Shown piece after piece: positions 20,012 to 30,781 of a stretch of DNA of 50,285 nucleotides (position 1 is its first letter; each line of letters starts with the position of its first letter). A program made the translations under genes and the position numbers. Origin of the DNA: an uncultured Archangium sp. (GTDB taxonomy: Bacteria > Myxococcota > Myxococcia > Myxococcales > Myxococcaceae); the NCBI GenBank assembly GCA_903905455.1, contig CAIVGN010000196.1, positions 1 through 50,285 on the forward strand, written 5' to 3'. The notes beneath the pieces were generated by a model, which did not search any database, had not been told where the DNA came from, and saw only the letters and a program-made list of their open reading frames with translations.

Positions 20012-20926
20012 ATGCTCACCACCGCCGATGGTCCCCTGCTCGCGGTGTTCAGCTCGGTCGCGCGGCTGGGCTCCTTCACTGCCGCGGCCCAGGCGCTCAA
20101 GCTCTCGAAGAGCGTGGTGAGCGAGCGGGTGCGGCAGCTCGAGGAGCGGTGTGGGGCCCGGCTGCTCGAGCGCACGACCCGGCGCGTGCGGCTGACGAGC
20201 GCCGGCACCGAGGTGCTCGAGGCGGCCACGCGCATGGACGACGCCCTGGGCCTGGTGACCCGCAGCCTCGAGGTGGGGCGCCGCGAGCCCTCGGGCGTGC
20301 TGCGCGTCTCCACCACCAGCGACCTGGGGCCGCTGCTGGTGGGCCCGGTGGTGGCGCGCTTCGTGACGGCCTACCCGCGGGTGCGCGTGGAGATCCTCTC
20401 TGACGACGCGCCCGGCGAGCTGCTCGAGTCGCGCGTGGACGTCGCGGTGCGGCTGGGGGCCCCGAAGAACTCGACCTTCGTCAGCCGCAAGCTGGCGGTG
20501 CTCAGCGAGCCCATCGTCGCCGCGCCGGCCCTCGCCGTGCGTTGGGCCCAGGCGACGCGGCCCCGGGACCTCGCCGATGCGCCGTGGGTGCGCCACTCGC
20601 TCGTGTCGTCGGCCACCTTGCGCTTCGGGGGCCCCGGCGGCGCGACCGAGGAGATCTCTCCCGCCTTTCGTGCCGAGGCCAACTCCGGCACCACCCTGCT
20701 GAGCCTGCTGCTCAACGGCGCAGGCCTGGGCGTGCTCCCCCACCACGCGCTGCGCGAACACCTCCACAGCGGGCGCCTGGTGCAGCTGTGCCCGGGGTGG
20801 ATCTGGAAGACGGTCACCCTCTTCGCCCTGGTGTCGTCGCGCGCGTCGCTCAGTCCCACGCACAAGGCCTTCATCGCCATGCTCCAGGACCAGCTCGCCC
20901 AGGACCACAGCCGCTGGAGCCCCTGA
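20012..20926 (+). CDS. LysR-family transcriptional regulator
   Basis: 304 residues. HTH in GSFTAAAQALKLSKSVVSERVRQLE (split for length at residue 40), then ARLLERTTRRVRLTSAG and a periplasmic-binding-like effector domain (GVLRVSTTSDLGPLLVGPVV, SRVDVAVRLGAPKNSTFVSR, GAGLGVLPHHAL). It faces away from the SnoaL-like gene and likely regulates it. Its ATG lies within a dyad with no clear ribosome-binding site. Confidence 0.9.
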   Translation: MLTTADGPLLAVFSSVARLGSFTAAAQALKLSKSVVSERVRQLEERCGARLLERTTRRVRLTSAGTEVLEAATRMDDALGLVTRSLEVGRREPSGVLRVSTTSDLGPLLVGPVVARFVTAYPRVRVEILSDDAPGELLESRVDVAVRLGAPKNSTFVSRKLAVLSEPIVAAPALAVRWAQATRPRDLADAPWVRHSLVSSATLRFGGPGGATEEISPAFRAEANSGTTLLSLLLNGAGLGVLPHHALREHLHSGRLVQLCPGWIWKTVTLFALVSSRASLSPTHKAFIAMLQDQLAQDHSRWSP

Positions 20927-20941: not shown

Positions 20942-21952
20942 TCAGCTGGCGCGGAAGACGAAGCGCGTGGCCCCCGAAGACACCTCGTCGCCCGGGGTGA
21001 GGAACGCGGTGTAGCGGCTGCGGCCGTTGAAGAGGAGCGAGTGGTGCTTGTACGCCCGCGAGACCAGCCAGCCCCCCGACTCCCAGCGCACCGCGGAGGT
21101 GGGGAAGGTCACCTGCGCGCCCTGCTCGAGGCGACGCTGCTCGCCGCCTGCGAACTCCAGCCAGGCGCGCGCGTACTGCTGCACCACCGGCGGCTGCAGG
21201 AACGGGGCGCGCGCGAAGGGGGCGCGGGCGAGGGCCTCGGTGCACCGCGCGCCGTCTTCCGCGGTGAAGAAGGGGCCGAAGCGCAGCTCGCGCAGCGCGG
21301 GCAACGCGGCGCCGTCGAGTCCGAAGCGCGGGTGCAGGTAGGGCAGGGCGAGGGTGTCGAGGAACCGCGCCGCCTCCGAGGCCAGCAGCGCGAAGAGCAA
21401 CGCGCGGTCGACGGTGAAGGCCTGGGCCCGCAGCCGCGCGGCGCGCACGAAGCCTCCGCGCCAGTCGAGCTCGAGCGTGCCCTCGCGCACCGCCTCCGAC
21501 AACGGCGCCGCCAGCGGCATGCGCTTGCCCGCGGCCAGGCGCGGACCCAGCGGGTCACCCTGCTCGAGCAGCGCGTCGACCCACACCTGCAGGGCCGCCT
21601 CGCCGTCGCTGGCCTGCGCCAGCACCGCCGCCATGGGGTCCACCGGCGAGGGGAGCTCGGGGCCCAGGTGGAACACGAAGGGGTGATCGTCGAGCTCCAG
21701 CACGTCGCCGTCGGCGAGCACCCGGTGCGCGAGGGGCGCGCCGTTGAGCCGGGTGCCGGTGGTGGTGGCCAAATCCTCCGCCTCCACGTCACCCGAGGGC
21801 AGGCGCACCAGCACCACGTGGCGCCGGTCGACGCGGCCGCTGTGCACCACGAGGTCCGCGTCGCGCGAGCGGCCGATGATCAGCCGCTCGCCCACGGCGA
21901 AGGATTGACCTTCGGGGTCGACGAGGTGGGCGGTACGGCCAGGCACGGGCAC
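20942..21952 (-). CDS. FHA-domain protein with TIGR02996-like segment
   Basis: 336 residues from GTG 21952 (GTG 21946 is an alternative). Residues about 20-95 are a forkhead-associated domain: GRSRDADLVV, VDRRHVVL and GTRLNG (Asn70, Gly71). The usual serine of the SxxH phosphothreonine contact is Asp42 here, which may weaken phosphopeptide binding. Residues about 107-138 (AVLAQASDGEAALQVWVDAL, LEQGDPLGPRL) resemble the TIGR02996 companion domain known from Myxococcales. The remainder includes a beta-rich C-terminus. It lies 29 bp after the pseudokinase gene and is probably its co-expressed partner. Confidence 0.78.
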   Translation of the reverse strand: MPVPGRTAHLVDPEGQSFAVGERLIIGRSRDADLVVHSGRVDRRHVVLVRLPSGDVEAEDLATTTGTRLNGAPLAHRVLADGDVLELDDHPFVFHLGPELPSPVDPMAAVLAQASDGEAALQVWVDALLEQGDPLGPRLAAGKRMPLAAPLSEAVREGTLELDWRGGFVRAARLRAQAFTVDRALLFALLASEAARFLDTLALPYLHPRFGLDGAALPALRELRFGPFFTAEDGARCTEALARAPFARAPFLQPPVVQQYARAWLEFAGGEQRRLEQGAQVTFPTSAVRWESGGWLVSRAYKHHSLLFNGRSRYTAFLTPGDEVSSGATRFVFRAS

Positions 21953-21981
21953 CCTATAGGCCGAGGTCGGCCCGGGCGGGG

Positions 21982-24981
21982 TCACTGTGCAGCGAGCACG
22001 ATCTCCAGCGCGGCGAGGGCCGCCAGCGGGTAGCGGCTGCGCAGCGCATCGAGCGTCTGGGTGGCGTCGGCGAGGTTCCTCGGCACGGCCCCCACGGTGT
22101 TGGCCACCTCGAAGCACAACGAGATGACCACCCCGCGCGGGTCCGAGGGCAGCGTCTCGTCACCGTCGAGCAGCGGGCGAACGAAGTCCTCGAAGTCGCG
22201 CCAGTGCGGCCCGAGGCACGCCGCGGCGGCCGGCCGCGAGGGCACCTCGAAGGCGCGCTTCCCCTCGAGCAGCGCGGCGATGACCACCGCGGTCACCGAG
22301 AGCCGCACCTGGTCCATCGGGCCTCCGGTGGCGCCGGCCTGCTTCGCCACCGAGCGCACCAGGGAGATCATCGCCGAGGCCTCGAGGCCCCGGTCTCCCA
22401 TCACCGACAGGGCCGCGTCGAAGAGCCGCAGCGCCACGTCGAGGGAGCCCGTCAGCTCGGCCGCCGATGCCGCGGGAGCCACCACGGGCACCGCCGGCGC
22501 CGCGGCGACCGGCGCCTGCTGCGGCGGCGTGAAGGGGGCCGGGGCCGGCGCGGGGCTCGACGGTGCTGGCGCCTGGGGAGCCGCCGCCGGCGCCTGGGGC
22601 ACGGCGGAGGCCTGCGCGGCGTACTGCGCGGGGCTCGACGGCGGCGGCGCGTAGAGCCCCGGGGATTGCGTCGCAGAGTCCCCGGGCCCGGGCACGGGCG
22701 GCGCGTACTGCGCCGCGTACTGCGCCGGGCTCGACGGGGGCGGGGCGTACAGCGCGGGGTTCGAGGGCGGCGGTCCGTAGCCGGGCTGCGCGTACTGCGG
22801 CGCGCTCGCCGCCTGGGGTCCGTAGCCGGGCTGCGCGTACTGCGCGGGGTTCGAGGGCGGAGGGCCGTACCCGGGCTGCGCGTACTGCGGCGCGTTGGAG
22901 GGCGGAGGGCCGTAGCCGGGCTGCGCATACGGCGCGTTGGAGGGCGGAGGTCCGTAGCCTTGCTGCGCGTACGGCTGTGGGTTCGAGGGCGGCGGTCCGT
23001 AGCCGGGCTGCGTGTACGGCTGGGGGTTCGACGGCGGAGGGCCGTACCCTTGCTGCGCGTACTGCGGCGCGTACTGCGCCGGGTTCGAGGGCGGAGGTCC
23101 GTACGGCGAGGGGCCCTGCGGCGCGTACTGCGGCGCATACGGCTGCGGGTTCGACGGCGGGGGGCCGTAGCCGGGCTGCGCGTAGGGCTGCGGGTTCGAC
23201 GGCGGAGGTCCGTAGCCTTGCGGCGCGTACGGCTGCGGGTTCGAGGGCGGCGGGGCCCAGGCCGCCGGAGACGGCGCGGAGATCGCCTCGAGCACCCCTG
23301 ACGCGCTCAGCGCCAGGCGCCCGGGGCTCGGCTCGGGCGGCGCGTCGGCGACGTCGAGCTCGAAGGACATCGGCGCGGGCACCGGGGGCGGCGGGACGGG
23401 CGCGGCGAACGACTCCACCTGGGGGGCGCCCTTCACGGCCCAGCTGGGCGCCGAAGTCTTCCCGTCGTAGACGCGGGCGAAGCCCTCTTCGATGGTGCGC
23501 TGGGTGGCGCGCACGGCGGTCACCGAGCGGGCCTTGGCGCGCAGCTTGAGGTCGTCGAGCACGTCGAGGCGCGCCGGGTCGATGACCGCGACGGTCAGCC
23601 CGCCCGCCTCGAGCTTCAGGGGGAAGACCTGCCAGTCGTCGGCCGCGTCGCGCGGGAGCATCGCCGCCTGCGGCTTGCCCAGGGCCAGCTCCAGCATCTG
23701 CGGGCCGGTGAGGTACTGCTGCTTGAGCAACCCCGCGGCGATGGGGAGCACCTCGTCTTCATCGAGGGTGTCGAGCGCCAGCAACGAATCGAAGAGCGTC
23801 GCGCCCAGCGACTGCGCGTGCCGCAGCGCCGCGTCGACCTGCTCCACCGTCAGCCGCTGCAGCTCGATGAGGTTCGCCCCGAGCGCGAAGTCCTTCGGGT
23901 TGTCCTCGTCGCGCGAGTGCTTGAGCGACCACTCCCGCCCGGCGACGCGGGCCGCTTCCACGGCCTCCACGGCGCGCTCGGCGGCGACGTCATCGGCGGT
24001 GACGCGCCTGGTGGTGATGCGCGCCAGCTTCACCGCGCCCTCGGTCAGGCTCGCCCCGGGCAGGCCCACGGTGATCACCGTGCCGCCCTGCAGCTGCGAG
24101 CGGGTGGGCGCGCGCCCCGGGAAGAGGCGTGGGAACGCGTCGACCAGCGGCCGCGTGGCGTCGAAGAGCCCGAGCGTGGCGCCGATCTGCTCGAGCATCG
24201 ACGCGAGGTCGGTCATCGAGGGGCGCGCGGTGGGCGCCTTCGACAGCATCATGGCCAACGCCGCGGCGACCTGCGGCGGCAGCGACGGGAAGTGGCCCGC
24301 CGTCACCCCGGGGAACTTCTCGAAGCGCGCCTTCACCTCGGCGTGGTTGTTCGCGCCGAAGGCGGGCTTGCCGGTGAGCAGCTCCAGCCACACCAGGCCC
24401 AGGCGGAAGACGTCGGTGGTGGGACCGGCGCGGCCCTCGAGCTCCTCGGGCGAGAGGCACAACAGCTCGGAGCGCGCGGGGCCCTGCGTGGCGTCGGGCG
24501 GGTGCGCCGAGGCGACGCCGATGGCCTCGAGCCGCACCGTGCCGTCGGCGCCCAGCAGCAGCGTGCTCGCCGAGACGTCGCCGTGCATCAGCGGCGGGTT
24601 GAGCTGCGAGAGCGAGCGCAGCCCGCGGGCAGCCTGGATGACGATGGCCAGGCTCTCGACGATGGAGAAGGGCGTCTTGCCCGGAGGCGCGGGCCCGGCG
24701 AGCGCGGTGCGCACCGGCTCGCTCTCCATGAAGTCCTGCACCACGCACACCGCGCCGTCGGCGAGGCCCACCTCGAACAGCGGCAGCACCCCTTCGGCCT
24801 CGCGCAGCGCCGACCACCCGCGTTGCCAGGTGGTGAAGCGCTCGAGGAAGGCCGAGCCCTGCGCCCATGGGTCCTTGCGGCGCAGCACGGTGACCGCGCG
24901 CCCGTCGTCAGAGAGTCCGGCCCAGGCGTCGGTGACGAGACCCCGGGGACTGAGTTGCTTCGCGAGTCGGTAGGTGCCCAT
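21982..24981 (-). CDS. Serine/threonine pseudokinase with MshEN/GspE-N-like domain and Pro-rich repeats
   Basis: 999 residues. Residues 1 to about 270 have the Ser/Thr kinase fold, but the glycine loop is absent, the VAIK lysine position reads AVTVL, the catalytic loop is MHGDVSASTLLL (Asp kept near residue 132; the Lys and Asn positions changed) and DFG is replaced by EAIG. It should not transfer phosphate. Residues about 365-510 resemble the N-terminal domain of type II secretion/pilus ATPases (GANLIELQRLTVEQVDAAL, LLKQQYLTGPQMLELALGK). Residues about 574-780 are PPPSNPQPYAQPGYG repeats. About 850-999 is a unique helical domain. Likely a scaffold acting with the FHA and PilZ-receiver proteins. 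Confidence 0.85.
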   Translation of the reverse strand: MGTYRLAKQLSPRGLVTDAWAGLSDDGRAVTVLRRKDPWAQGSAFLERFTTWQRGWSALREAEGVLPLFEVGLADGAVCVVQDFMESEPVRTALAGPAPPGKTPFSIVESLAIVIQAARGLRSLSQLNPPLMHGDVSASTLLLGADGTVRLEAIGVASAHPPDATQGPARSELLCLSPEELEGRAGPTTDVFRLGLVWLELLTGKPAFGANNHAEVKARFEKFPGVTAGHFPSLPPQVAAALAMMLSKAPTARPSMTDLASMLEQIGATLGLFDATRPLVDAFPRLFPGRAPTRSQLQGGTVITVGLPGASLTEGAVKLARITTRRVTADDVAAERAVEAVEAARVAGREWSLKHSRDEDNPKDFALGANLIELQRLTVEQVDAALRHAQSLGATLFDSLLALDTLDEDEVLPIAAGLLKQQYLTGPQMLELALGKPQAAMLPRDAADDWQVFPLKLEAGGLTVAVIDPARLDVLDDLKLRAKARSVTAVRATQRTIEEGFARVYDGKTSAPSWAVKGAPQVESFAAPVPPPPVPAPMSFELDVADAPPEPSPGRLALSASGVLEAISAPSPAAWAPPPSNPQPYAPQGYGPPPSNPQPYAQPGYGPPPSNPQPYAPQYAPQGPSPYGPPPSNPAQYAPQYAQQGYGPPPSNPQPYTQPGYGPPPSNPQPYAQQGYGPPPSNAPYAQPGYGPPPSNAPQYAQPGYGPPPSNPAQYAQPGYGPQAASAPQYAQPGYGPPPSNPALYAPPPSSPAQYAAQYAPPVPGPGDSATQSPGLYAPPPSSPAQYAAQASAVPQAPAAAPQAPAPSSPAPAPAPFTPPQQAPVAAAPAVPVVAPAASAAELTGSLDVALRLFDAALSVMGDRGLEASAMISLVRSVAKQAGATGGPMDQVRLSVTAVVIAALLEGKRAFEVPSRPAAAACLGPHWRDFEDFVRPLLDGDETLPSDPRGVVISLCFEVANTVGAVPRNLADATQTLDALRSRYPLAALAALEIVLAAQ
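22640..23260 (-). repeat. Tandem Pro/Tyr-rich repeats in the pseudokinase gene
   Basis: Roughly 45-bp units coding for variants of GYGPPPSNPQPYAQP; ten PPPSN and two PPPSS cores can be counted. The unit resembles low-complexity Pro/Gln/Tyr linkers that can promote phase separation or cell-wall association. Copy number is likely to vary between strains. Confidence 0.85.
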
Positions 24982-25087
24982 CGGATGCCTCGTGAACGGT
25001 AGCGCAGCGCCCGCGGGTCCGTGTGCGCTGAATCGCTCCGTGGAGGGAGCCGATGTAGGCCTCTGGCAGATCAGCCGGGGCCGGCGC

Positions 25088-26056
25088 TCACTTCAGGTAG
25101 CGGCCCACCATGTTGAAGAGGTCGCCCAGGGTCATGGGCTTCGACAGGTAGTCGGTGGCGCCGGACTCGTCGGCGACCACGTGCAGCCGGCCGGGGTCGA
25201 GGGCCGAGGCGAAGATGACGGGGATGTCGGCCAGCTCGACGTCGGCGCGCATCGCCTTGCAGATGTCCACGCCGTCCATGCCGGGCATGAGGATGTCGAG
25301 CAGCACCAGCGCCGGCCGCGCCTGGCGAATGAGGGACATCGCCTCGCGGCCGCTCGACGCCTTGAGCACCTCGTAGCCGTGCTTCGAGAGCGCCCGGGTG
25401 AGGAACTCGCGCAAGTCGGCCTCGTCGTCGGCGACGAGGATCTGCTGGCGCGCCTTCGGGGGGCGGGCGGCGAGGCGCTCGAGCTGCGCGCTCAAGTGCG
25501 CCCGCGCGACGTCGCTCAGCGCCGAGAACTGCACGCCGATGTACGCCTCCTCGTGGTCGCGGCGCACCTCGGCCGAGAGGGCGACGACGCGGCCGTCGTC
25601 CAGCGTCACCTCGAACTCGATGAACTGGCCCGCGGCGAGCGGCGCGGTCGTCTCGAGCAGCGCCCCGGTCTGCGAGAGGTTGCGCAGCTTCGCCGCGTGC
25701 GGCACGTCCGGCCGCTTGAGCGCCACCTTCAGGTTGCACGGCTCGCGGTGCGCGCTGCGGCCGGCGTTGGGCCGCGTGGGCTCTTCGGCGAGCCCCAGGA
25801 AGCGGCGCACCTTGAGCACCTCGTCGTCGCCGAGGTTCACCCACACGCCGGGCTTGAAGCGGCCGCCCTCGGTGCGCAGGCCCACCACGTCGGCCATGGC
25901 CACCAGCAGCACGCCGCCGACCACCAGCTCCACCGGCACCCGCGCCCCCAACCGCACGCTCGCGGCCGGAGCCTCGATGAACACGCGGTCGGTGTTGGCC
26001 TTCACCAGCTCAGACCACAGGCGGAACTTGTCGGGGAACTCCAGGCGCAGGCGCAT
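25088..26056 (-). CDS. PilZ-domain response regulator
   Basis: 322 residues. Residues about 1-90 form a beta-rich domain of PilZ-like appearance. Residues about 97-195 are a PilZ domain with both cyclic-di-GMP motifs: RSAHR (R100xxxR104) and NLSQTG (126-131). Residues 205-320 are a receiver with DD210-211, phospho-acceptor Asp254 in LVLLDILMPGMDG and Lys306. It therefore should combine second-messenger binding with phosphorylation. GAGG lies 4 bp before the ATG. It precedes the pseudokinase gene by 106 bp on the same strand and is divergent from otsB. Confidence 0.88.
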   Translation of the reverse strand: MRLRLEFPDKFRLWSELVKANTDRVFIEAPAASVRLGARVPVELVVGGVLLVAMADVVGLRTEGGRFKPGVWVNLGDDEVLKVRRFLGLAEEPTRPNAGRSAHREPCNLKVALKRPDVPHAAKLRNLSQTGALLETTAPLAAGQFIEFEVTLDDGRVVALSAEVRRDHEEAYIGVQFSALSDVARAHLSAQLERLAARPPKARQQILVADDEADLREFLTRALSKHGYEVLKASSGREAMSLIRQARPALVLLDILMPGMDGVDICKAMRADVELADIPVIFASALDPGRLHVVADESGATDYLSKPMTLGDLFNMVGRYLK

Positions 26057-26248
26057 GAAACCTCGGGGGCGTCGTTGGGGGGAGCGACGGACTTCTCAGC
26101 CAGACCCCGTCACCACTCCGATGGTCACCGAATCGACGCCCCACGGACGCACGCGGAGTCCCCGGAAGTGCCGGCGAAGATCTTTCTGCTGGGCCTCAAC
26201 GACCGCCCCGCCGCGCGTGGCATTTGCCTTCTGCGTCGAAATCACAGA

Positions 26249-26986
26249 ATGAAACCCATGGGCTTTGGCACTCCGACGGCGGGCTTCCTCGCGGGTGCGG
26301 CGCTGTTCCTGGATTTCGACGGCACGCTGGTCGAACTGACGCCGACGCCGGACGGCACGCGGGTCGATGGGCCGCTGCTCACCCTGCTCGCGGAGGTGCG
26401 CGCCTCGCTCGGGGGGCGGCTCGCCATCGTCAGCGGACGTTCCATCGAGGTGCTCCGCGGCACCTTTGGGCTGGGTGACTTCTGGCTCGCCGGCAGCCAC
26501 GGGCTGGAACTCGCGGCTCCCCACCTGGACATCGAGTCCCCGGCGCGCGACCCGGCGATCGACGAGGCGCAGCGTGCGCTGGAGGTCTTCGTCGCCGACA
26601 AGCCGGGTCTCTTCGTCGAGCCCAAGGCGCTGGGCGTCGGGCTGCACTTCCGGCCGGCCCCCCAGTTCCAGCGCGCCTGCGAGGCGTTCACCGAGCGCCT
26701 CGCGCGCGAGACCGGCCTCGTCAACCAGCACGGGAAGATGATGTACGAGCTGCGCCCCGGCGGCGCGGACAAGGGCACGGCCATCGGGGCGCTGCTGCAG
26801 CGCACGCCGTTCCTCGGAGGCCGGCCGATCTTCTTCGGCGACGACCTCACCGACGAAGCTGGGTTCTCGGAGGTGGTGAAGCACCACGGCGCTGGCGTGC
26901 TCGTGGGCCCGGAGCGCCAGAGCGCGGCGCAGTACCGCCTCGAGGACGTCGAGGCCGTGCGCGCGTTGCTCCGCGCCGCGCCCTGA
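26249..26986 (+). CDS. otsB: Trehalose-6-phosphate phosphatase
   Basis: 245 residues, HAD superfamily. It hydrolyses trehalose 6-phosphate to trehalose in the cytoplasm. Motif I is LFLDFDGTLVEL (nucleophile Asp22, acid/base Asp24), motif II is the IVSGRS region (60-64), and the family-specific block FFGDDLTDEAGF (196-206) with Lys175 gives motifs III/IV. Length is normal for OtsB. No trehalose-phosphate synthase (otsA) lies in the window. The start has only a weak ribosome-binding site; a second ATG lies 9 bp later. Trehalose supports osmotic and desiccation tolerance. Confidence 0.93.
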   Translation: MKPMGFGTPTAGFLAGAALFLDFDGTLVELTPTPDGTRVDGPLLTLLAEVRASLGGRLAIVSGRSIEVLRGTFGLGDFWLAGSHGLELAAPHLDIESPARDPAIDEAQRALEVFVADKPGLFVEPKALGVGLHFRPAPQFQRACEAFTERLARETGLVNQHGKMMYELRPGGADKGTAIGALLQRTPFLGGRPIFFGDDLTDEAGFSEVVKHHGAGVLVGPERQSAAQYRLEDVEAVRALLRAAP

Positions 26987-27830: not shown

Positions 27831-29684
27831 TCAGTCTTGCGGGCCCTTCACGAGGCTCGCGCCGTTGCCGGACACCCAGGTGATGCCCGCGCCGCTGGTG
27901 CGCACCGAGTAGCCGGCAGCGCCACCCGCCGCGCCGGCCGTACCGATGTTGCTCGCGCCACCGCTCGCGCCTGGCAGGCCGTAGCCACCGGCCGTCCCGC
28001 CCGCGCCCCCGATGGCCACCCCGGCATAGTTGCCGCCGGGCCCCGGCGTACCGGGGCTCAGGCCGCCGCCGCTGCCGGGCGCGCCGTTCGCGTACTGCGC
28101 GCCGGAGAAGCCCGGCCCTCCAGCGCCGCCCGAGCTGTTGGCCGTGCCCGCCCCGCCCGCACCGCCGCCACCACCGGCGAGGTTGTTGACCTGGTGCGAC
28201 TCCCCGCCGCCACCGCCACCACCGCCGCCGCCGAAGATGGTGCCCGCGTTGGTGATGCTCAGGGGCACGCTGGAGCGGATGGCGTCACCGCCGCCCTGCC
28301 CGGCGATGGGCGGGAAGGAGCTCTGGGCGGCGCGGGTATCGACGCCGGCCCCCATGCCGCCCGAGCCGCCGGCGCCGATGATGACCCCGTTGTTCACCAG
28401 TTCGACCACGGAGCCTGGAGGCAGCGCCCCGGAGCTGAACGCCGGGAGCCCGGCCTGCGCGGAGGAGACCACCACGCCAGCGTTGATCGTCACCTGCACC
28501 CGTCGCGGCGAGGTGGGCGAGCCCGCGGCGATGAAGGCGTCGTAGTTCTGCGTGCTGCTGGTGATGGCGAGCGTCACCACGACCAGGGCGCAGCTCGTTC
28601 CCGAGCCGGTGTAGCCCGCGTTGCAGGCGCAGCTGCTGCCACCATCGGTGTTGGTGCAGGTCGCGTTCGCGTCGCAGCCCGCGCTCCCCAACGCACACTC
28701 GTTCACGTCGGCGCACACCCGGCCGTTGCCTTCGAAGCCCACGTTGCAGGCGCAGCTCGACCCGCCGACGGTGTTGGTGCACGACGCGCTCACCGCGCAG
28801 CCGGCCGTGCCCTGCTGGCACTCGTCGATGTCACTGCACTGCACGCCATCACCGCTGAAGCCGGGCCGGCACGCGCAGCCCGGGCCGCCGTCTTGCTGTG
28901 CGGTGCAGGTGGCGCTGGTGCTGCAGCCGCCGTTCGACGAGGCGCAGGGGTCGCCCAGGCAGCCACCGCCCAGGCACAGGAGCCCGCCCGGACAGTCGCC
29001 CTGGTTGAGGCAAAGGCCGCAGGCGCCCGTGGCGAGACAGCTCGTGCCGGCGCAGTCGGCGTTCTGGCTGCACGCCCCGCACGCGCCGCCGTCGAGACAG
29101 GCCTGGCCGGCGCGGCAGTCGACGCTGCTGCGGCAGGCCCCGCACGCGCCCGACGCACAGGCCGCGGTCGCGGCGCAGTCGTCAGCTGACTGGCAGGCCG
29201 TGCACAGGCCCGCGAGGCAGCGGGCCGAGGCGCAGTCGCTCGCGGCCCCACAGGTGCGCCCGTCGGCACAATCGGCGCACGCGCCGCCACAGTCGACGTC
29301 AGACTCGTCACCGTCGCGCCGTTGGTCGCTGCAGCTGTCAGCCATGCATTGCCCGGCCGTGCAGTGCCGGCCCACCCCGCAGCTCACGCCGACGCAGCGC
29401 GCTTCGACGCAGGTGCTGCCGAGGCAGACCTGGTCCGCGGCGCAGGTCGTGCCCGGGCAGTTCTTCGGGTAGCAGGCCCCGACCACGCAGCGCCCTGCCG
29501 CACCGCAGGCCTTGCCGCAGCTGCCGCAGTTCGTGTCGTCGGACGAGAGGGTCACGCAGGCCTCCCCGCAGGCCGTGGTGGTGGCCGGGCAGACCTGGCC
29601 CGCATCAACGACGGCGGGCGGCGTGGAGGGGCAACCGGCGAGGACGATGAGCGAGAGCGCGAGGCCGAGCCGAGTCTGGTTCAT
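27831..29684 (-). CDS. Cys-rich lipoprotein with EGF-like domains and Gly-rich C-terminus
   Basis: 617 residues. Lipobox LIVLAGC (Cys18). Residues 30-245 are disulfide-rich short repeats (CGSCGKACG, CGACRSSVDC, CGACSQNADC). Residues about 245-400 carry EGF-like modules, at least two of the calcium-binding kind (DIDECQQGTAGC, DVNECALGSAGC). Residues about 430-617 are a glycine-rich region with GAGGSGGMGAG and ten consecutive Gly in one place. Surface localisation via the lipid anchor is likely; role unknown, possibly adhesion. ATG 29684 begins the signal peptide; an extended upstream frame to 30128 lies inside the peptidase gene and is not coding. Confidence 0.8.
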   Translation of the reverse strand: MNQTRLGLALSLIVLAGCPSTPPAVVDAGQVCPATTTACGEACVTLSSDDTNCGSCGKACGAAGRCVVGACYPKNCPGTTCAADQVCLGSTCVEARCVGVSCGVGRHCTAGQCMADSCSDQRRDGDESDVDCGGACADCADGRTCGAASDCASARCLAGLCTACQSADDCAATAACASGACGACRSSVDCRAGQACLDGGACGACSQNADCAGTSCLATGACGLCLNQGDCPGGLLCLGGGCLGDPCASSNGGCSTSATCTAQQDGGPGCACRPGFSGDGVQCSDIDECQQGTAGCAVSASCTNTVGGSSCACNVGFEGNGRVCADVNECALGSAGCDANATCTNTDGGSSCACNAGYTGSGTSCALVVVTLAITSSTQNYDAFIAAGSPTSPRRVQVTINAGVVVSSAQAGLPAFSSGALPPGSVVELVNNGVIIGAGGSGGMGAGVDTRAAQSSFPPIAGQGGGDAIRSSVPLSITNAGTIFGGGGGGGGGGESHQVNNLAGGGGGAGGAGTANSSGGAGGPGFSGAQYANGAPGSGGGLSPGTPGPGGNYAGVAIGGAGGTAGGYGLPGASGGASNIGTAGAAGGAAGYSVRTSGAGITWVSGNGASLVKGPQD

Positions 29685-29785
29685 GGGGGGAGCGCGAACT
29701 TCGCAGCTTTTCGCGAGGGAAGGAGCCCCCGTCGACCGACTCGAGCCCGCGGCCGAGGTGCACCTCGAGACCCATCGCCTCCCCG

Positions 29786-30781
29786 TTACTGCGCGAGCGA
29801 CTCGACCACGCTGATCAGCCCCTCGGTGACCAACGCCAGCCGGCGGAAGTCCACCCGCGCCGGGACGTCGGTCGGCTCGTGGTAGTGCGGGTTTCGGAAC
29901 AGCGCGGTGTCGGTCACCATCAGCGCCGGGTACCCGTATTTCCAGTACGGCGCGTGGTCCGAGAAGTCGACGCCCTCCAGCGAGCCGGGCAGCGACGCGC
30001 CCTCGCTGGGCACCTGGGCCATCGCGCGGAACGTGCGCACGCAGTCGCGCACCAGTTCGCGCGACTCGACGTTGCCCACGAAGGCCACGAAGTTGCCCTG
30101 CGACGGGTAGACCAGGGAGAGCGGCCACGGGTAGCGCTGTGAGCCCGCCTCGTCGCTGAAGTAGCCCAGCGTCTCGAGCGAGAGCATGGCCTTGACGTCA
30201 TCGTGCCGCCCCCGGCACGCGCCCGCGTTCACCACGCTGCCCATCGACGTGGTGCGGAAGTGGGGCGGCTCTTCGTTGGTGAAGAAGATGAAGCGCACGG
30301 TGCGCTCGGGCGTGCGGGTGGAGAAGATCTCCGCCAGCGCGAGGGCCACCGCGACACCCGAGCCGTTGTCGTCCGCGCCCGGCGTGCCGTGGGCGGTGTC
30401 GTAGTGCGCACCCACCAACACCAACTGCGTGGCGAGGCCGCGGCCGCGTCGCTCGACGATGAGGTTCTTCGTGGTGCGCTCGCCGACCTTGATGGGCTCT
30501 TCCTGCACCACGTAACCCAGGCCCTCGAGCCGGGTGCGGAGCCACGCCGCGGTCTGCTCGAGCGCCGCCGGTTGATTGGTCACGTTGCGCTCACCGAAGC
30601 CGGCCGCGAGCTGGGTCACGTCGGCGTTCAACCTCGCGACGAGGGCCGGGTCAGGCTGCGCCTCGGGCCCCGCGTAGGAGGTGCCGGGCATCGACACCGC
30701 GCGCACCGTGCAGCCCGCGACCGACCCGAGCGCGAGCAGCGCCACGGCGATGAACCCACGCGACCGCTGCACGAAGACCAT
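29786..30781 (-). CDS. M28-family zinc aminopeptidase lipoprotein
   Basis: 331 residues from ATG 30781 (a GTG 9 bp upstream is possible). Lipobox SVAGC (Cys24). The dinuclear zinc ligands of M28 are visible: His126 in GAHYDT, Asp137 in GADDNGSG, Glu170/171 in FFTNEEPP, Glu203 in SLETLGY and His301 in PHYHEPTD. It should remove N-terminal residues from peptides in the periplasm or at the surface. FSDHAPYWKYGYPALMVTD is also typical of the family. It stands alone, 101 bp upstream of the EGF-protein gene. Confidence 0.92.
   Translation of the reverse strand: MVFVQRSRGFIAVALLALGSVAGCTVRAVSMPGTSYAGPEAQPDPALVARLNADVTQLAAGFGERNVTNQPAALEQTAAWLRTRLEGLGYVVQEEPIKVGERTTKNLIVERRGRGLATQLVLVGAHYDTAHGTPGADDNGSGVAVALALAEIFSTRTPERTVRFIFFTNEEPPHFRTTSMGSVVNAGACRGRHDDVKAMLSLETLGYFSDEAGSQRYPWPLSLVYPSQGNFVAFVGNVESRELVRDCVRTFRAMAQVPSEGASLPGSLEGVDFSDHAPYWKYGYPALMVTDTALFRNPHYHEPTDVPARVDFRRLALVTEGLISVVESLAQ

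Follow-up and report, generated by a model that had tools for sequence, protein, structure and literature searches.

MshEN is a general fusion domain (PMC5013675). In MshE, Arg9 and Gln32 are important for the binding of c-di-GMP, and in XpsE/GspE of Xanthomonas, where the MshEN motifs are changed, c-di-GMP binding has been lost (PMC5013675). Fusions of MshEN to Ser/Thr kinases are already known (Wang et al. 2016, PMC5013675), and Myxococcus xanthus is reported to possess as many as 22 MshEN genes (PMC5013675). The same species encodes PixA, in which a PilZ domain is followed by a receiver domain, as an orphan gene (PMC8316039), and EcpK is reported as a tyrosine pseudokinase of M. xanthus (PMC12004946). 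In the open-access literature, which leaves most subscription journals outside, we found no description of a family that combines kinase, MshEN and HD-like domains, nor of its pseudokinase branch.

Here we describe a member of this branch from an uncultured Archangium sp., encoded in a stretch of DNA of 50,285 nucleotides (contig CAIVGN010000196.1) that is called the window throughout. A previous interpretation, made from the letters alone (the sequence-only reading), had joined three neighbouring genes into one c-di-GMP-gated scaffold in which a pseudokinase serves as the docking platform. The large protein of this locus shares the fusion of kinase and MshEN with the proteins of Wang et al. 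(PMC5013675), but differs from them in having lost both the kinase and the c-di-GMP motifs and in carrying an additional HD-like domain at its C-terminus. An MshEN fold in which changed motifs abolished the binding of c-di-GMP is found in XpsE/GspE (PMC5013675); there the domain sits on a secretion ATPase, while in the large protein it sits between a pseudokinase and the HD-like domain.

Results

Gene layout and domains

The three minus-strand open reading frames are real and separated by short gaps (Table 1): 106 bp lie between the end of the PilZ-receiver gene and the start of the large gene, and the GTG start of the FHA gene overlaps the TGA of the large gene (GTGA, 21985-21982). On one side of the set lies a LysR gene (20012-20926, convergent) and on the other a trehalose-phosphatase gene (26237-26986, divergent). 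Elsewhere in the window, a 765-aa open reading frame with several EGF-like repeats occupies 27831-30128 on the minus strand.

Table 1. Positions of the genes and protein domains at the locus (window coordinates; residues are those of the large protein)
Feature	Coordinates	Strand	Description
PilZ-receiver gene	25088-26056	-	322 aa; PilZ-receiver response regulator with c-di-GMP motifs and phospho-Asp intact; a neighbour inherited separately
Large gene	21982-24981	-	999 aa; kinase fold, MshEN-like domain, Pro/Tyr/Gln linker, HD-like C-terminal domain
Kinase fold, residues 1-270	24172-24981	-	catalytic motifs gone except HRD Asp (D135); Pfam, alignment, VIA Z 27.5 to PknA
MshEN domain, residues 361-515	23437-23901	-	degenerate in both RLG..Q motifs for c-di-GMP (ALG.. 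and TLF.. instead)
PPPSNPQPY-type repeat linker, residues ~577-790	22612-23253	-	tandem repeats; private to the window's genome among those inspected
HD/HD-GYP-like helical C-terminal domain, residues 841-999	21985-22461	-	AlphaFold2 pLDDT 92.3; VIA; no conserved metal ligands
FHA gene	20942-21985	-	347 aa; partly degenerate phosphopeptide site; not a conserved partner of the large gene

All the domains expected from the motifs scored above their Pfam cut-offs in the two smaller proteins (PilZ 55.3 bits, REC 85.8, FHA 43.9). In the large protein, the proposed MshE/GspE N-terminal-like domain was recovered by a profile search with PF05157 (41.9 bits against a cut-off of 23.1, residues 440-510), and kinase profiles gave partial matches of 40.1 and 33.8 bits, also above cut-off but confined to residues 64-263. 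The long PPPSNPQPY tract was confirmed by tandem-repeat detection as period-45 arrays, corresponding to a low-complexity unit of 15 residues. It can be dismissed as a family feature, since no PPPSN was present in the four orthologues inspected.

The kinase fold lacks its catalytic residues

The large protein adopts the bilobal fold of Hanks-type kinases in its AlphaFold2 model (mean pLDDT 84.5 over the kinase-MshEN part), in agreement with Pfam, and the kinase part superposes on PknA at 2.6 Å over 258 residues. As the sequence-only reading had stated, there is no glycine loop, and the VAIK Lys, the catalytic-loop Asn and the DFG Asp are missing: VAIK has become VTVL (Leu in place of Lys), DFG has become EAIG, and the catalytic loop HRDxKxxN reads HGDVSAST, with HGD for HRD, Ser for Lys and Thr for Asn. 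The HRD Asp, D135, is thus the only one of the residues of an active Hanks-type kinase (VAIK Lys, HRD, Asn, DFG Asp) to be retained. A MAFFT alignment of 41 relatives rules out that this is an ordinary active kinase whose motifs have shifted, and PF00069 scores the window's protein at 33.8 bits versus 125.6-133.2 in five kinase-intact relatives.

From these substitutions, the large protein would not be expected to bind ATP. The opposite reading, in which the fold still binds nucleotide or supports an unconventional catalysis and so acts as an enzyme of atypical kind or as a switch gated by nucleotide, draws on the preserved fold, on D135, which is invariant across a 16-sequence alignment, and on the VAIK Lys and DxG Asp kept in some relatives (L049, L107). 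We consider it unlikely, given that the catalytic motifs are missing from all nine orthologues, none of which has the VAIK Lys, the catalytic-loop Lys or the DFG Asp and only one of which (L044) has the catalytic-loop Asn, and that the kinase is the least constrained of the folded parts of the protein (see below).

The MshEN domain lacks its c-di-GMP motifs

Each c-di-GMP motif of MshEN is degenerate as well, a loss that had escaped the sequence-only reading. NF053729 is a curated model of c-di-GMP-binding MshEN domains, whose signature is a pair of RLGxx..Q motifs, each of 24 residues and arranged in tandem, that carry RLG, G and Q; it has a cut-off of 38 bits. The window's domain reaches 12.8 bits, below that cut-off, its nearest orthologue 13.3 and L050 14.3, and L049 gives no match; six kinase-intact relatives score 52.6-66.9 bits and L107 40.4. 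Both RLG Arg residues, both turn Gly residues and the second LG are gone from the window's protein, and motif I retains its Leu-Gly.

We therefore expect, on these motifs, a protein that does not bind c-di-GMP. That the domain might still accommodate c-di-GMP or another cyclic dinucleotide through its altered residues would fit its strong conservation among orthologues (pN/pS 0.22) and the surviving Leu-Gly of motif I, but appears quite improbable after the residue losses just listed: Arg9 and Gln32 matter in MshE, and XpsE (GspE), with its changed motifs, lost binding (PMC5013675). The suggested tie to a pilus or secretion ATPase came from the name of the domain, and finds no counterpart among the neighbours scanned, which include no PilB/GspE-type gene. 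The fusion partners of MshEN within the window's own genome are ATPases, a cyclase, an HD-GYP-DUF4388 protein and HEAT repeats. Individual examples are a protein with MshEN, an intact HD-GYP and DUF4388 (L127:3051-4952) and one with MshEN, GAF and an adenylate/guanylate cyclase (L126:3534-5456), this pair lying on contigs C130 and C167, and a 964-aa MshEN protein with HEAT repeats (L123:1463-4357, on C48).

A C-terminal domain with an HD-like predicted fold

The folded domain at residues 841-999 had also been passed over. AlphaFold2 models it with high confidence (mean pLDDT in Table 1), and for the predicted fold of residues 836-999 the nine best VIA matches are all HD/HD-GYP phosphodiesterases (Z 7.3-9.7, the best being DvhD at 9.7), although for helical bundles Z values below ~13 can arise by chance. 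The matches that follow the best nine begin at Z 6.7, and some of them are also HD proteins (DatZ, SpoT). Foldseek returned no significant match (E 0.54), profile-profile comparison with HD-GYP in hhalign gave a probability of 1%, and Pfam and NCBIfam had nothing useful for this domain, so a true HD-GYP domain finds no support in the sequence. Neither the HD metal ligands nor the GYP motif are conserved, and only L23 and P79 are invariant in a 19-sequence alignment. Because the Z values fall in the chance range, Foldseek and profiles give no match and no metal ligand is conserved, the domain is, as modelled, HD-like by fold only. The predicted fold is similar to the HD-GYP proteins DvhD, PA4781 and Bd1817 (VIA Z 8.5-9.7, again within the range that chance can produce), but in contrast to these the large protein lacks both the conserved His/Asp that bind metal and the GYP motif, and the sequence profiles do not match. 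A profile of the domain recovers it from nearly every member of the family, in kinase-intact and degenerate groups alike.

A family divided by one change

Searching with a profile of the large protein yielded 41 kinase-MshEN proteins; they come from 14 genera within the same family, and their motifs were read from the MAFFT alignment. Eighteen of them, from eight genera, are kinase-intact, with VAIK Lys, HRD, Asn and DFG kept. Both MshEN motifs, [RK][LIV]G..[LI] or the motif I variant PLG, occur in all 17 kinase-intact proteins whose MshEN lies on the contig, and the turn Gly and the Gln are also kept in most of these. The other 23, from six genera, are kinase-degenerate, including both copies in the window's genome, and almost all of them have degenerate MshEN motifs. 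No genus contains both kinds among the proteins collected. Intact kinase motifs together with both c-di-GMP motifs suggest that the kinase-intact relatives are probably c-di-GMP-regulated kinases; strong candidates for direct regulation of a Ser/Thr kinase by c-di-GMP are L059 and L088-L104, in which an intact kinase goes together with intact tandem motifs for c-di-GMP and an HD-like domain at the C-terminus.

In the unrooted tree, a single branch with support 100/99 parts the 18 kinase-intact proteins from the 23 kinase-degenerate ones. Repeated independent co-loss of the kinase and c-di-GMP sites is excluded by the tree, which requires one change only, and because the joint loss counts once, it cannot serve as two separate pieces of evidence that the sites are functionally linked. 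An unrooted tree cannot prove direction alone, but the agreement of the intact motifs with the general kinase and MshEN consensus would make the intact state ancestral and the change a loss rather than a gain. The boundary between the two groups is graded, since L049 and L107, both in the degenerate group, keep the VAIK Lys and DxG Asp and L107 passes the c-di-GMP model. This intermediate (L107:2675-4375) has the VAIK Lys, Asn and DxG Asp with HGD for HRD, and a second one (L106:20-1591) has a dead kinase and the first RLG motif kept.

The large protein is under purifying selection

Orthologues of the large protein were found in four of six genomes of its own genus, counting the window's genome, and in five of a second genus; apart from the window's copy, all eight are 51-74% identical to it over the kinase-MshEN part. 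Compared with the same-genus orthologue L041, pN/pS is 0.22 in MshEN, 0.33 in the HD-like domain, 0.51 in the kinase and 0.71 in the linker, and compared with L042 the values are 0.32, 0.26, 0.47 and 0.56, respectively. This purifying selection indicates that the large protein is maintained and not decaying. Decay into a relic could be read into the loss of all known active sites and into the private repeat expansion of the linker, but the frame is open in nine genomes of two genera at the identities given above and pN/pS is well below 1 in every folded domain, so that a relic is scarcely credible. Constraint is strongest in the MshEN and HD-like domains and weaker in the pseudokinase. The kinase fold is a pseudokinase as proposed, but the distribution of constraint argues against it as the main docking platform, though not against its having a role.

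The two neighbours are inherited separately

We scanned up to 18 kb around the eight orthologues, or less where the contig ends, and at none of the eight loci did a PilZ-receiver or FHA gene stand beside the large gene; the only matches were generic receiver domains. A conserved three-gene cluster is thereby ruled out. Instead, the three same-genus orthologues lie in a different neighbourhood common to them, in which a PPDK_N-like gene and an RNA 3'-phosphate cyclase (3/3) and a hybrid histidine kinase (2/3) occur; in a search of the window's own genome for this older neighbourhood, contig C156 ended within the adjacent histidine kinase. Orthologues of the PilZ-receiver protein (72-75% identical) and of the FHA protein (58-65%) are encoded at other sites: in G048, the large gene lies 141 kb into a 249-kb contig and the PilZ-receiver gene on a different contig, and in G032 the large gene lies on a 153-kb contig and the FHA gene on a different one. 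Because these orthologues are unlinked to the large gene, the three genes are separately inherited and were joined in the window's genome, and as judged from these comparisons the PilZ-receiver and FHA genes are independent signalling genes that adjoin the large gene there by chance.

The PilZ-receiver protein carries both c-di-GMP motifs, RSAHR and NLSQTG (conforming to RxxxR and [DN]xSxxG), and an intact phospho-Asp, D254, just as had been noted, and these are kept in near and most other orthologues. It is a widely kept PilZ response regulator for which c-di-GMP binding is predicted. Its likeness to PixA lies in the domain order; the phospho-Asp of PixA is residue 180 (PMC8316039) versus 254 here, so the window's protein is longer before the receiver. 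The FHA protein has VDRRH for VSRRH, confirming that its key Ser is Asp, and TTTGT for STNGT, with GR and H kept. The Asp is ruled out as a conserved phosphomimic, since the orthologues have Ala (G032) or Ser (G026) at this position. By eye, the C-terminus of the FHA protein (20942-21200, minus strand) resembles a second, degenerate FHA half (LLFNGRSRYTAFLTPGDEVSSGATRFVF).

The overlap of its start with the stop of the large gene makes it probable that the FHA gene is cotranscribed with the large gene in the window's genome. A scan for promoters and terminators of a shared transcript found none, such scans being uninformative in GC-rich, non-enteric DNA. This overlap, the common strand with short gaps, and the c-di-GMP motifs and phospho-Asp retained by the PilZ-receiver protein and most of its orthologues are what could unite the PilZ-receiver protein, the pseudokinase-MshEN protein and the FHA protein into a single scaffold gated by c-di-GMP, with a pilus or secretion ATPase as its possible target. 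Nevertheless, with no neighbourhood common to the eight orthologous loci, with the PilZ-receiver and FHA orthologues unlinked, with the MshEN c-di-GMP motifs lost and with the Ser-to-Asp change of the FHA protein not conserved, this proposal is very unlikely, and an operon-like three-part system does not hold.

Discussion

We favor, with a probability of roughly 0.6, the explanation that the large protein is a stand-alone, non-catalytic and probably c-di-GMP-blind derivative of a family of c-di-GMP-regulated Ser/Thr kinases, serving as a scaffold, decoy or allosteric partner, and that its neighbours are independent of it. The family has the fixed order Ser/Thr kinase, MshEN and HD-like domain, and the window's lineage would have lost the active site of the kinase together with the site for c-di-GMP while keeping the three-domain body. 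Since both sites are lost while the body is kept, action independent of catalysis and of c-di-GMP is most likely. Partner proteins would be bound mainly through the MshEN-like and HD-like domains, the most constrained parts. Beside the domain order, motif loss, purifying selection and lack of synteny seen here, a scaffold function is what we infer. A more specific and tentative version is that of a pseudoreceptor-pseudokinase whose kinase, c-di-GMP and HD metal sites are dead and whose body is selected, and which may compete with, or scaffold, the partners of its active relatives.

The kinase-intact relatives would represent a link between c-di-GMP and Ser/Thr kinase signalling of the kind previously noted (PMC5013675). 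Forms graded from intact via partial (L107, L106) to dead occur naturally in the window's lineage, which makes it possible to study what function such a protein still has after losing catalysis and ligand sensing.

The second pseudokinase-MshEN paralogue of the genus (L049, L056, L057, L058) is followed in all four cases by two genes of ~325 aa; at L049 both products are peptidyl-prolyl isomerases of the PPIC type, and the N-terminus of one is SurA-like. In two genera, a triple universal-stress-protein gene adjoins a kinase-degenerate MshEN protein (L050:4552-5898 and L051:6373-7731).
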